In this document: piece after piece, positions 41,014 to 44,032 of the stretch
How positions within the stretch are numbered: position 1 is the stretch's first letter
Layout of the letters: each line of letters opens with the position of its first letter
NCBI GenBank assembly: GCA_002868925.1
Contig: PKTZ01000093.1
Span: 1-44,032 of the forward strand
DNA from: Desulfuromonas sp.
GTDB taxonomy: Bacteria > Desulfobacterota > Desulfuromonadia > Desulfuromonadales > UBA2294
Reading direction: 5' to 3'
DNA length: 44,032 nucleotides
Made by a program: the position numbers and the translations under genes
Notes under the pieces: generated by a model
Told to the model about the DNA's origin: nothing
Databases searched by the model: none
The model's input: only the letters and a program-made list of their open reading frames with translations

Positions 41014-41089
<76 letters not shown>

Positions 41090-41097
41090 ATAAAAAC

Positions 41098-41132
41098 AAG
41101 GACTTATGGCTTTGTGCTGTAAGTCCTTTTTT
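41098..41132 (+). terminator. intrinsic terminator of tRNA-Ala
   Basis: A 9-bp stem AAGGACTTA / TAAGTCCTT with a 13-nt loop, followed by TTTTTT, directly after the tRNA. Confidence 0.88.
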
Positions 41133-41278
41133 ATTGCTCCTTCCCAAGGTGTCCAGATATGTGTCTAGTTACTTTTAAATCGAATATTTGTCAGCATAAT
41201 TAATCATTGATTGAATCAGCCAAAATTGAAGTGACTCAAACCTCTAATGGCTTCCTATAAGGGCTACGCTGTCTTCCA

Positions 41279-41390
41279 ATAAATCACGACGGCCAAGGAG
41301 CATTTCGCTTTCTTAAATTGCAGGGGTTGTAAGAATTGGTAAATCTGAGGGTATTTCAGCTTCAGAATAGAAATAGCAGGATTTATAAGA
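41279..41390. repeat. accessory-region repeat, unit A
   Basis: Two blocks match unit B at 42850-42997: ATAAATCACGAC...TTAAATTGCAGG (41279-41324) and TCTTAAATTGCAGGGG...ATTTATAAGA (41311-41390). By eye the 80-nt block is about 70 percent identical. The 75-aa ORF that covers it on the minus strand has only a GTG start and looks spurious. Confidence 0.6.
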
Positions 41391-41449
41391 CGGTCATTAA
41401 TTTGACTGTGCTTTTGTTTTATCCCATTAAATGAATAGTTCTTTAACTT

Positions 41450-41532
41450 TGCTATAATTACAAAACCAAACCAATTGCGGCTAAGGGCCACTCTTTGGGA
41501 TTCTATCCCTCCCTGGCCGCACTTTTTTATTT
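41450..41532 (+). ncRNA. candidate small RNA with extended -10 promoter and structured 3' end
   Basis: TTTGCTATAAT gives a perfect -10 (41453-41458) with an extended TGn; transcription would start near 41465. After about 10 nt comes a strong stem, GCGGCTA(A)GGG / CCCTGGCCGC (10 bp, one bulged A), whose loop holds a second hairpin GGGATTCTATCCC. ACTTTTTTATTT follows. The product would be about 60-65 nt. The outer 7 bp with an unpaired A at the 3' side also recall a tRNA acceptor stem, so a reduced tRNA remnant is possible. The promoter shares ACTTTGCTATAA with the tRNA-Ala promoter. Alternatively this is only a terminator. Confidence 0.45.
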
Positions 41533-41539
41533 GTTACCT

Positions 41540-41578
41540 AAAAAACAGGGACCTTCAAATTAAAGGCCCCTGTTTTTT
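41540..41578 (-). terminator. intrinsic terminator of the octahaem cytochrome gene
   Basis: AAAAAACAGGG(A)CCTT paired with AAGG(C)CCCTGTTTTTT around a 7-nt loop; the symmetric A and T tracts would let it work in both directions. It lies 18 nt beyond the cytochrome stop on the minus strand. Confidence 0.88.
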
Positions 41579-41595
41579 AATATAGATCTTTGTTG

Positions 41596-42639
41596 CTAAT
41601 GAATTTTCTTCGCGTTCTGGGATGCCCATCCCCTGTCACGGCTAGCATGGCAGCCGAGGCAGACATAATCAAGTGTCACAAAACCTTTTGAAAAAGTAGA
41701 CTTCATTCCTTTTTCTTCCACAGTCTTAAACATATCCGCATTCTTGTCGGTGTTGATCTTGAAGATATGGGTGCGAACATCACCGGTGTAGCTGGAGACT
41801 GCGATGGCCGACTTGCTCGCCTTCGGCATGTGACATTCGATGCAGCGGGTTCCCTGCTTCCCGTGGATATTCTTAGCGAAGCTCTTAGCGACATCGTCAT
41901 GGCATTCGGCACAGTTATCTTTGGCCAGGATTGCCCGCTTGTGCGGATCATGGCAGGTCGTGCAGTCAAGGTCCTTATGGACGCCCGCCTTAAGTTCGTT
42001 GATCTGCTCGTGATGCTTTATGAAGCCGCCACTGGCTGGTGGCTCAGGCCCCATACCGCCGCGCTGGTGACATTTGCCGCAGGACTCGGCCGATGTACTT
42101 ATCTGGATATTCTTCTTGCTCGGCTGACGGATGTGGTCACCGCCAGCACCGTGACACTCTTCACATCCGATTCCGTCTTCGGACCAGGTCCCTATCATGC
42201 CCGGCTTACCGTCCTGATTCCCCATGGAGCTGTAGTTGGTCATATGACAGGGGCCGCACTTGTAAGGCTTCTTTTCCCCCTTGTGATAGAACGACCAAGA
42301 CCCATCCTCGATGTTGTACTGGGTCATAGCTTCACTACCGTCTTTTGCGGTTGTAATAATGTAACCGTTGTTATCAATAAAGCGAGCTTTCTTGTTTGCT
42401 CCGCCAATTACATAGGAAATATCGTCCCAGCTATAGCCAGGAGGAAGAGGAAGTTTAGAGTAGCGGGCCTTCTCCATTTTGCGCAGCTTCCAGGGATGCC
42501 CGCTGGCTTGCCAGTCGTTGTAGTTCTCCTGGTGACAGGAAAAGCATTGATCCGATCCAACGTAGTCGGTGGCGACGGCCGGAACAGCCAACAACGTAAA
42601 GATCAATCCGAGACACGACATCATTGTCAACTTCTTCAT
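41596..42639 (-). CDS. secreted octahaem c-type cytochrome
   Basis: A 347-residue periplasmic protein with a signal peptide (LGLIFTLLAVPAVATD). Eight CxxCH haem-binding motifs are visible in order: CFSCH, CGPCH, CEECH, CGKCH, CTTCH, CAECH, CIECH, CLGCH. The many other His residues can provide distal ligands. It opens with the YVGSDQCFSCHQENYNDW...HPW pattern common in multihaem cytochromes of metal-reducing bacteria. The role is electron transfer in respiration; the donor and acceptor are not known, and it is not clearly one of the named octahaem reductases. GGGAGA lies upstream of ATG 42639. It stands alone in an A+T-rich tract between repeats, and would depend on the Ccm/Ccs machinery encoded elsewhere. 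Confidence 0.92.
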   Translation of the reverse strand: MKKLTMMSCLGLIFTLLAVPAVATDYVGSDQCFSCHQENYNDWQASGHPWKLRKMEKARYSKLPLPPGYSWDDISYVIGGANKKARFIDNNGYIITTAKDGSEAMTQYNIEDGSWSFYHKGEKKPYKCGPCHMTNYSSMGNQDGKPGMIGTWSEDGIGCEECHGAGGDHIRQPSKKNIQISTSAESCGKCHQRGGMGPEPPASGGFIKHHEQINELKAGVHKDLDCTTCHDPHKRAILAKDNCAECHDDVAKSFAKNIHGKQGTRCIECHMPKASKSAIAVSSYTGDVRTHIFKINTDKNADMFKTVEEKGMKSTFSKGFVTLDYVCLGCHASRDRGWASQNAKKIH

Positions 42640-42676
42640 GGTTCATCTCCCTTGCGATTGGTTTGAGGACATGCCA

Positions 42677-42706
42677 ATTCCGCTTCGTAGCAGATGAACG
42701 CGGAAT
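42677..42706. promoter_or_regulatory. inverted repeat in the cytochrome leader
   Basis: ATTCCGC / GCGGAAT, 7 bp with a 16-nt spacer, between the predicted promoter and the cytochrome start. It could be an operator for a dimeric regulator or a 5' leader stem. Confidence 0.35.
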
Positions 42707-42722
42707 AATATCAATATTTTGA

Positions 42723-42750
42723 ATTCTATAAGGGAAAAGAAAATGCGCAA
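42723..42750 (-). promoter_or_regulatory. candidate promoter of the octahaem cytochrome gene
   Basis: On the minus strand TTGCGC (42750-42745), a 16-nt spacer and TAGAAT (42728-42723), about 85 nt upstream of the start codon. Confidence 0.45.
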
Positions 42751-42849
42751 GCGGGAAAGTTTATAATTAAACTAGGGATTTAGATTTTCGTGAGGATAGA
42801 GTCTCATTGAAGGAACTGGGCCCGCGCTCCCTTCACTCTACGAATTTCC

Positions 42850-42997
42850 ATAAGTCACGACTGCCAGGAAGGCTTTGTCTTTCTCAAATTGCAGGACTGG
42901 TGAGAAGCTATCTCAATTCTTAAATTGCAGGGTTTATAGGAATTATTAAATTAGGCGGGTTTTGAACCCTTAGTGAGAAATAGTAGGACTTATAAGA
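42850..42997. repeat. accessory-region repeat, unit B
   Basis: ATAAGTCACGACTGCCAGG... and two AAATTGCAGG blocks (42885-42895 and 42921-42932), then ...AGAAATAGTAGGACTTATAAGA. It matches unit A at 41279-41390, with one extra internal block of about 30 nt. It lies in the 510-nt gap between the cytochrome and the lipoprotein gene, beside a terminator and a tRNA-Pro-like fragment; no gene is seen in that gap. Confidence 0.6.
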
Positions 42998-43026
42998 AAA
43001 GAGCGACCCTGATTAGGATCGCTCTT
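42994..43026 (-). terminator. intrinsic terminator after the tRNA-Pro-like fragment
   Basis: AAGAGCGA(C)CCT / AGG(A)TCGCTCTT with loop GATT (42999-43026). On the minus strand it is followed by TTCTTA. It lies downstream of the tRNA-Pro-like fragment, in the place expected for a tRNA terminator. Confidence 0.7.
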
Positions 43027-43034
43027 CCTATTAT

Positions 43035-43080
43035 CGGTCGGGGCTAGAGGATTTAAACCTCCAACCCTTGTTCCCGAATC
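43035..43080 (-). pseudogene. decayed 3' fragment of a tRNA-Pro gene, copy 1
   Basis: On the minus strand it reads GATTCGGGAACAAGGGTTGG then AGGTTTAAATCCTCTAGCCC and CGACCGA. This follows the 3' half of bacterial tRNA-Pro(GGG): anticodon loop TCGGGAA, T arm with loop TTTAAAT in place of TTCAAAT, acceptor strand ending CCCCGACC and a mutated CCA (CGA). The sequence upstream of the anticodon does not pair, so the 5' half is missing. Such 3' fragments commonly mark integration junctions. Confidence 0.6.
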
Positions 43081-43148
43081 CTTTGATTTTTTAGAAGTCT
43101 GTTGAAAGGACGAATAGGATAGTCCTCTCTATTCTTCATCAATGGCAT

Positions 43149-43748
43149 TTACTTATTGCGAAAAACGGCGGCATCAATCAATTCTTTTTGGAGTTTTTTT
43201 AGTGCATTTTCAGCAGCTAGTTTTCCAGCGAGACTGTGGTCCTTAATGATTTCACTTACAGCTACAACGTCGTTATCAGCTTGAACGGTAGTCTGCCAAA
43301 CCTGAGTTTGGTCTTTGTCAACAGCAATACAGTTTATTGTCATCGAAAAGTCGGTGGGTGGCCAGAAGAATGCATTTCGAGATGAAGATGTAGTTGTAAT
43401 TCTTGGTATGAAAACAAAAGATATGTCCTTATCCTGAAGGAACGATATGTCATTGAGATCTTTGATCATGTAAGTTGTTGTGAAAATATTTGATAATACA
43501 AGGTTGAAGGCTGGTTCAAGATCAGCATACGGTGCATATTTTACAGAATCACCTCCGCCCGCAGATGTTGTAGTTTGTAAAGCTATATTTTCTGTCGAAA
43601 TGTAATAGCCGACGTTTTTATTGATTTTTTGTGAAGGGCCTTCATTGCCAATATTGTCAAGTTTTGGGTTGATCTTAATATTATGAGCACAACCGCTACA
43701 CAATAATAAAAGCACTAGGATGAAGAAGAAACGTCTCTGAATTTTCAT
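43149..43748 (-). CDS. hypothetical lipoprotein
   Basis: A 199-residue protein with a lipoprotein signal peptide: positive MKIQRR, a hydrophobic FFFILVLLLL and lipobox LCSGC with Cys20. The mature part is low in G+C codons. It contains YYISTENIALQTTTSAGGGDSVKY, FVFIPRITTTSSSRNAF and a C-terminal helix KLAAENALKKLQKELID. The pattern (a beta-rich domain, then a helix that starts after an inducible-looking AxSEIIKDHS) recalls small outer-membrane lipoproteins of the LPP20/YajG kind, but I cannot assign a family. ATG 43748 has GGAGGG upstream; the track's start adds six residues over that site. Codon use is unlike the core genes, fitting acquired DNA. Confidence 0.7.
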   Translation of the reverse strand: MKIQRRFFFILVLLLLCSGCAHNIKINPKLDNIGNEGPSQKINKNVGYYISTENIALQTTTSAGGGDSVKYAPYADLEPAFNLVLSNIFTTTYMIKDLNDISFLQDKDISFVFIPRITTTSSSRNAFFWPPTDFSMTINCIAVDKDQTQVWQTTVQADNDVVAVSEIIKDHSLAGKLAAENALKKLQKELIDAAVFRNK

Positions 43749-43787
43749 GATTTGCCCTCCTTGCATAAATTTGGTTTTTCTTAATTG

Positions 43788-43815
43788 ATTTTATCTCTAT
43801 AGAGTCAAGGTGCAA
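43788..43815 (-). promoter_or_regulatory. candidate promoter of the hypothetical lipoprotein gene
   Basis: On the minus strand TTGCAC (43815-43810), a 16-nt spacer and TAAAAT (43793-43788), 40 nt upstream of the ATG. Confidence 0.45.
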
Positions 43816-43888
43816 CTGCGGAGAGGAAGCCCGGGGCCGGAATGCAAATAAAAAAAGCGACTCTGATTAGGGTAATTCTTTTTATTAT

Positions 43889-43917
43889 TGGTTGGGGTGA
43901 GATGATTTGAACCTTTG
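43889..43917 (-). pseudogene. decayed 3' fragment of a tRNA-Pro-like gene, copy 2
   Basis: On the minus strand it reads AAAGGTTCAAATCATCTCAC then CCCAACCA. It has a T loop TTCAAAT, an acceptor-like CACCCCAAC and an intact CCA. Its left flank (43857-43881) is a decayed form of the terminator seen next to copy 1. Nothing of the 5' half is visible. Confidence 0.45.
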
Positions 43918-43928
43918 ACATATATTCT

Positions 43929-43998
43929 CATAAGTCACTGGTTGCGAGAAGAAAAACCGCTTCTTATTGATAGAGATATTTAAGAGGGTTATTAAATC
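43929..43998. repeat. accessory-region repeat, unit C (weak)
   Basis: CATAAGTCAC at 43929-43938 matches the start of unit B, and GGTTATTAAATCA near 43987 resembles its later part; the rest has diverged. Confidence 0.35.
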
Positions 43999-44001
43999 AA
44001 G

Positions 44002-44032
44002 AATGGCCACCCAAAACAGGTGGCCATTTTGT
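44002..44032 (+). terminator. strong hairpin at the right edge
   Basis: A 10-bp stem AATGGCCACC / GGTGGCCATT with a short A-rich loop, followed by TTGT at the window edge. It may terminate a gene beyond the edge on the minus strand, or be a free-standing bidirectional terminator. Confidence 0.6.

Follow-up and report, generated by a model that had tools for sequence, protein, structure and literature searches.

The contig PKTZ01000093.1 from the draft genome of a Desulfuromonas sp. (assembly GCA_002868925.1, 216 contigs), which was analysed over its entire length of 44,032 nucleotides (contig C159, hereafter the window), contains to the right of a tRNA-Ala gene an accessory region in which single genes are separated by related non-coding modules. 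This region is probably part of a chromosomal gene-cassette array, with a small serine recombinase of the resolvase/invertase kind (Gin, gamma-delta) as the enzyme that moves the cassettes. An earlier, sequence-only reading had remarked that the arrangement recalls gene cassettes and might represent an undescribed cassette system, a suggestion that is strongly supported by arrays of same-oriented sites and by cassettes shared between genomes in which their neighbours differ. At each boundary between genes, a site with the central dinucleotide CT (CT site) is followed 36 to about 115 base pairs (bp) to its right by a site with the central dinucleotide GT (GT site), which is itself preceded at 36 bp by a second dyad. 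In the proposed mechanism, recombinase dimers would bind the 12-bp half-sites and cleave at the central dinucleotide, CT sites exchanging with CT sites and GT sites with GT sites, and a gene and its boundary would thereby be excised, inserted, deleted or duplicated. The gene for the recombinase would itself be carried between a CT and a GT site. Circular cassettes would be intermediates of this process, and expression is presumably local to each cassette.

Paired 26-bp sites and their arrangement in arrays

The repeat units reported by the sequence-only reading are real, since two modules of the window (41264-41424 and 42840-43005) align with a local score of 62 and the maximum in 2000 dinucleotide shuffles is 36. 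Its proposal that the modules derive from tRNA 3' ends proved wrong, as the modules of most loci lack tRNA sequence and their conserved part consists of recombination-site dyads. The module model finds 11-13 copies in the window's genome, 12 in genome G001 of the same genus, and nine and four in G072 and G031, which belong to another family. Two types of 26-bp near-palindrome (12+2+12) are present in the modules, TTCTTACAAACC-CT-GACWTWTRAGAA and TTCTCRKAAGTC-GT-GACTTATRAGAA. At a score of at least 14, a position matrix of these sites identifies 95 of them in 128 kilobases (kb) of module-bearing loci, compared with 0.7 after mononucleotide shuffling, and none in positions 1-41000 of the window. 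Seven genomes belonging to the order Desulfuromonadales and two further bins of metagenome-assembled genomes (MAGs) yielded a collection of 468 sites over about 60 loci. Because CT and GT examples served as seeds for the matrix, the near-exclusive occurrence of these two centres is partly a matter of construction, but the order, spacing and orientation of the sites are not products of this seeding.

Within most of the loci all sites have the same orientation, and CT and GT sites alternate, so that a GT site is followed by one or two genes, a CT site and the next GT site. The CT-to-GT spacing clusters at 36, 57-58, 101-104 and 108-113 bp, and the gene-bearing GT-to-CT interval has a median of 1.6 kb. 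The orientation of the genes themselves is mixed, with 78 in the same and 164 in the opposite direction to the sites. A second full dyad is located at exactly -36 bp in 70% of 256 GT sites, against a baseline of 0.5% at other offsets, which gives the joint consensus TTCCTAAATACC-TC-TATCAATAAGAA, 10 bp, TTCTCAGAAGTC-GT-GACTTATAAGAA; all three GT sites of the window have a dyad at this position.

The distribution of the sites was surveyed in 136 genomes of the order with the GT pattern, allowing up to three mismatches, and with the reversed pattern as a control. The number of sites per genome was 40-66 in four members of genus g28, 14 in G084, eight in G001 and five in the window's genome, with no match of the control in any of these. 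Exact site matches among named records occur in Desulfuromonadales MAGs, the isolate IMCC39146 and one Deltaproteobacteria MAG, and also on three small contigs of Desulfofustis and Desulfobacteria bins, the names of which suggest a single sample. In a search of IMG/VR for viral carriers, no exact match of the CT or GT site pattern was found. Several further features were observed in the arrays. Cyclic di-GMP-I riboswitches are located inside them (L014:3700-3773, L013:4507-4581, L147:17888-17974 and L138:7540-7630, the last with a match slightly under the curated cut-off), some upstream of cassette genes. In G031, about 8 kb of array (L138:6138-14528) is reversed between two copies of a two-gene cassette, and in G001 an insertion sequence with two transposase-like open reading frames splits a boundary module (L083:4870-6039).

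The linked serine recombinase and exchange at site centres

The enzyme associated with the arrays is a small serine recombinase of 190 amino acids with a PF00239 domain and a resolvase helix-turn-helix, the nearest solved structures of which are a Gin-type DNA-invertase (4m6f, 8e-27) and gamma-delta resolvase (1zr2, 2e-26). Its RVS and KLDRLAR catalytic segments are invariant across 11 homologues. The recombinase gene sits between a CT and a GT site. Among copies of families f1 and f13 with the downstream flank in sequence, the distance from the end of the gene to the start of the GT site is 93-96 bp in G031, G084, G092, G099 (a weak site), contig C150 of the window's genome, a remnant in G101 and a contig end in G072. 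A CT site is found 57-107 bp before the start of the gene in many of the copies with that flank in sequence, and two copies in G031 have an extra open reading frame of 83 amino acids between the CT site and the gene. The size of the sites is shared with those of Hin, which are also 26 bp long (PMC3798978). Homologues outside the two families have 73-81% identity; close homologues (E <1e-50) occur in four of 395 sampled genomes of the phylum, all within the order, and the homologues in plasmid and phage records are all below 60% identity. In L198 and L220 (G048), L199 (G038) and L201 (G029), recombinase homologues are flanked by paired toxin-antitoxin-like genes, which may be cassettes with diverged sites.

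The sequence-only reading had noted the absence of an integrase, which holds for the window itself; the break in the contig coincides with the edge of a copy of the recombinase gene. The contig stops 2 bp past the position that matches the recombinase stop codon in C150, and the end of the window is thus a contig end at the 3' edge of this repeated gene. Together with the G072 contigs C87 and C88, which terminate within the recombinase gene, this indicates that assemblies break at the repeated gene.

Evidence that cassettes move comes from blastn comparisons between loci, in which alignments of at least 400 bp and at least 80% identity were considered. Of 120 internal alignment ends, 33 have a site centre no more than 20 bp away in each of the two loci, while rotated site positions give a mean of 0.14 such ends and a maximum of one in 50 trials. 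In 32 of these 33 coinciding ends the pairing is like with like (CT-CT or GT-GT). Site pairs that share only the right flank have the same right half-site and different left halves, and the reverse occurs in pairs that share the left flank. For CT pairs, positions 13-15 alone are shared in both flank classes, which points to a short exchanged overlap, as for a serine recombinase. The overlap of tyrosine recombinases is 6-8 bp, with which the short overlap suggested by these alignments is hard to reconcile. We infer that the exchange is performed by the linked recombinase.

A clean example of exchange between genomes is a cytochrome P460 cassette shared by G031 and G072: between the two GT sites that bound it, the copies are 97.5% identical over 716 bp, and the neighbours differ on either side. 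A cassette with a gene for 181 amino acids is 86.8% identical in G001 and G031, which belong to different families, whereas purC of the window's genome and that of G001, in the same genus, are 83% identical. Another cassette is common to a Desulfuromonadales MAG and a Desulfofustis bin, with 94.5% identity. Judging by these alignments, identical cassettes with different neighbours, broken at the site centre, have crossed families.

Weighing the proposed serine-recombinase array against its alternatives

Several observations weigh against an array mobilised by a serine recombinase. The sole assembled recombinase copy of the window's genome (C150) is frameshifted, and no copy was detected in G001, a genome of 98% completeness with 12 modules. 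Some recombinase homologues of other families, in f8 and f15 for instance, have no site that fits the matrix, and few of the sites near them do. Right-flank matches join different site types in five cases, against 48 of the same type, and one G031 array switches orientation twice. Moreover, much of the material consists of MAG contigs, and those assigned to Desulfofustis and Desulfobacteria could be mis-binned.

An alternative is that the boundaries are non-autonomous elements, similar to miniature inverted-repeat transposable elements, that derive from a serine-recombinase transposon and were inserted repeatedly between immobile ordinary genes. This would agree with the location of the recombinase between CT and GT ends, with the resemblance of most boundaries to the same unit devoid of recombinase, and with the occurrence of boundary blocks in families of fixed length. 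Nevertheless, we consider it unlikely, with empty sites searched for less than exhaustively, because the sites are uniformly oriented over 10-20 kb per locus instead of showing the random orientation of insertions, the distances of genes to both flanking sites are constant across genomic contexts, gene-side alignments begin and end at site centres, and genes are common to different families together with their boundaries.

Housekeeping XerC and XerD could also act on scattered dif-like sites, as in the modules of Acinetobacter. Such a system would need no dedicated recombinase, which would explain G001, and linear arrays of multiple dif modules are known (PMC12907356). It is very improbable here, since the sites occur at a fixed distance from the gene of a serine recombinase and the second dyad at -36 has no counterpart in dif. 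Furthermore, the dyad arms are 12 bp around 2 bp, unlike the 11-6-11 geometry of dif.

Even less can be said for an integron, or a cluster of attC sites devoid of integrase, on which the tyrosine recombinase IntI would act. The same-oriented array of single genes fits such an element, and the same-genus G001 has a true IntI gene, but attC sites were rejected because their boxes are rarer than by chance in 93 boundary blocks (GTTRRRY in one versus 11 in shuffles, RYYYAAC in one versus 13), and the stretch that is invariably common at exchange points measures about 3 bp. Among six genomes examined, IntI (TIGR02249) is above cut-off in G001 alone, on a contig without sites, and below it in G000, G002, G031, G045 and G072. 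The G001 gene (C61:2798-3739, L107; 418 bits versus a cut-off of 265) encodes a genuine integron integrase and lies on a 4.2-kb contig that lacks CT and GT sites. In assemblies whose contigs break at repeats, none of the arrays was seen to end in a recombinase platform, such as the attI site and Pc promoter of integrons.

Finally, it is scarcely credible that the tRNA 3' fragments between the genes are remnants of tyrosine-recombinase islands that integrated time after time at a tRNA-Pro gene. The two tRNA-Pro fragments noted in the window by the sequence-only reading are real, each with a terminator, the window's genome has nine copies of this piece, of which one, on contig C39, is an intact gene, and 13 of 257 GT sites directly precede tRNA-Pro sequence in two families. 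Against this, most boundaries are free of tRNA sequence, most tRNA-Pro copies are away from the tRNA-Pro locus and spread over many loci, no integrase is present within 41090-44032, and tyrosine integrases are not generally linked to the arrays. The tyrosine integrase encoded at C150:12800-13936 (L009) was rejected as the driver, as no such enzyme is linked across genomes. Its gene adjoins tRNA-Leu(CAA) and is directly followed, after the stop codon, by a CT site; a tyrosine integrase near an array in G072 is just 29% identical to it.

There is nonetheless a grain of truth in the idea of repeated integration at a tRNA-Pro gene, because some GT sites directly precede decaying tRNA-Pro, although this does not explain the arrays. 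Such integration may still account for the entry of tRNA-Pro pieces into some of the cassettes. When the 130 bp to the right of each site were aligned to tRNA-Pro and its terminator, tRNA-Pro sequence was found to start 0-12 bp beyond the edge of the 13 GT sites mentioned, which belong to the window's genome and to genus g28. Nine of the 13 start at tRNA-Pro nucleotide 7 or 8, within 0-2 bp of the GT site, and Rfam recognises three of the adjoining copies as tRNA, from model position 8. Examples in which the GT site is followed by the tRNA-Pro body from nucleotide 7-8 include L138:2912, L147:16471, L176:649, L222:8725, L009:8743 and L011:1395, among others. Differences in their T-arms suggest that these copies come from different isoacceptors. 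We know of no mechanism that explains a tRNA-Pro junction at this point, with the crossover 12 bp away. The tRNA-Pro fragments are riders rather than the recurring boundary element, and tRNA-Pro may have been the original target of the cassette system.

The probable array in the window and its place among known systems

The features of the window are collected in Table 1. To the right of tRNA-Ala the G+C content falls from 0.56-0.62 to 0.38-0.48, as the sequence-only reading had indicated, and its count of eight haems in the cytochrome is borne out by eight CXXCH motifs. By contrast, the claim that each gene has its own promoter found no support in a scan for sigma-70 promoters, which returned seven where 5.0 were expected. 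The alpha element of the boundary module was rejected as a full site, since its left half alone fits the matrix. The presence or absence of the region at the tRNA-Ala locus was compared in two relatives, whose contigs both break off no more than 184 bp from tRNA-Ala; in the same-genus genome, the region to the right of the terminator already has a different sequence. A 49-bp tRNA-Ala 3' fragment in G001 (C62, L218:414-462) suggests a separate island at tRNA-Ala in that genome.

Table 1. Features identified in the window to the right of, and including, tRNA-Ala (PWM, position weight matrix)
Feature	Position	Strand	Basis or remark
tRNA-Ala(GGC), intact	41014..41089	+	ARAGORN, Rfam; left edge of low-G+C accessory region
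GT site, leftmost boundary, TCCTTGGCCGTC-GT-GATTTATTGGAA	41274..41299	-	PWM 21.6 bits; neighbouring dyad at 36 bp
CT site, TTCTTACAACCC-CT-GCAATTTAAGAA	41310..41335	-	PWM scan 38.2 bits
Alpha-CT part of boundary module (unit A of the sequence-only reading)	41310..41392	-	Model R1, E 2.3e-20
20-bp inverted repeat, probable terminator of cytochrome gene	41539..41579	no strand	Pair I3
Cassette gene, eight-haem c-type cytochrome, 347 amino acids	41596..42639	-	Pfam Cytochrome_C7/C554/MtrC-like; 8 CXXCH
GT site, TTCCTGGCAGTC-GT-GACTTATGGAAA	42845..42870	-	PWM 29.8 bits
CT-type dyad, -36 accessory position of GT site, TTCTCACCAGTC-CT-GCAATTTGAGAA	42881..42906	-	28.2 bits; 36 is the family spacing rule
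CT site, TTCCTATAAACC-CT-GCAATTTAAGAA	42917..42942	-	PWM 36.6 bits
Alpha element of boundary module (unit B), weak dyad	42973..42998	-	5.6 bits; conserved in model R1
tRNA-Pro 3' fragment and terminator, between lipoprotein gene and boundary	42997..43078	-	89% to tRNA-Pro and terminator
Cassette gene, probable lipoprotein, 205 amino acids	43149..43766	-	Pfam: no family
Second tRNA-Pro 3' fragment and terminator	43851..43914	-	84%; just right (site direction) of a GT site
GT site, TTCTCGCAACCA-GT-GACTTATGAGAA	43925..43950	-	PWM 31.9 bits
3' flank of serine recombinase gene copy	43934..44032	-	100% over 99 bp to C150:8123-8221
-36 accessory dyad of GT site 43925..43950, CTCTTAAATATC-TC-TATCAATAAGAA	43961..43986	-	Position rule, consensus

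Among known systems, integrons share with these loci the same-oriented arrays, the mostly single and diverse genes, the site attached to each gene and the exchange between species. However, the linked enzyme is here a serine and not a tyrosine recombinase, 26-bp dyads in CT/GT pairs take the place of attC boxes, the genes occur in either orientation, and no fixed platform is seen, the recombinase riding between two sites. In the dif/pdif modules of Acinetobacter, genes are likewise flanked by short recombination sites in linear arrays, and the XerCD tyrosine recombinases act on dif-like sites (PMC12907356, PMC7399989). These modules lack the CT/GT dyads, the linked serine recombinase and the accessory dyad at -36, and their 28-bp XerC-6-XerD sites appear to differ from the 26-bp (12+2+12) sites described here, a comparison made with the general dif geometry. 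The Hin/Gin and Tn3/gamma-delta res systems are similar in their small serine recombinase and 26-bp dyads with a central dinucleotide, and the present system has both a resolvase-family enzyme with intact catalytic residues and dyad sites of 26 bp that are linked to its gene. The crossover site of res has accessory dimer sites beside it, an arrangement to which the -36 dyad beside the GT site can be likened. These known systems act on a single segment, which they invert or resolve, whereas the exchangeable genes described here are bounded by dozens of sites per genome. In genomic islands of tyrosine integrases at tRNA genes, tRNA fragments are also found near the element ends, but here the site is of the serine type and is followed by a tRNA body that usually begins at about nucleotide 8, and tRNA sequence is absent from most boundaries.

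The gene-cassette arrays known so far are chiefly those of integrons, along with the simpler XerCD modules, and tyrosine recombinases drive both kinds. No description of serine-recombinase cassette arrays was found in open-access papers, the subscription literature being outside the search, and the novelty is therefore provisional. What appears new is the recombinase superfamily and the type of boundary; as a general concept, the cassette array is already embodied in integrons. A broader proposal can be put forward tentatively, and with somewhat more doubt than confidence: that the arrays are a self-spreading equivalent of the integron, based on a serine recombinase and on two site types that exclude each other, in which gene bodies and boundary blocks, one of them with the recombinase, are each exchangeable, which is shared across families of sediment bacteria, perhaps more widely, and for which tRNA-Pro genes were the original docking target.

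If an array of this kind is indeed mobilised by a serine recombinase, it would represent a separate solution for storing and swapping single genes, and integron-like capture would have evolved more than once. The CT and GT sites, if they recombine with their own kind only, would provide a ready set of orthogonal sites. For the metal- and sulphur-cycling bacteria that carry them, the arrays would constitute a sampled pool of accessory genes, including cytochromes, lipoproteins, adhesins and riboswitch-controlled genes.

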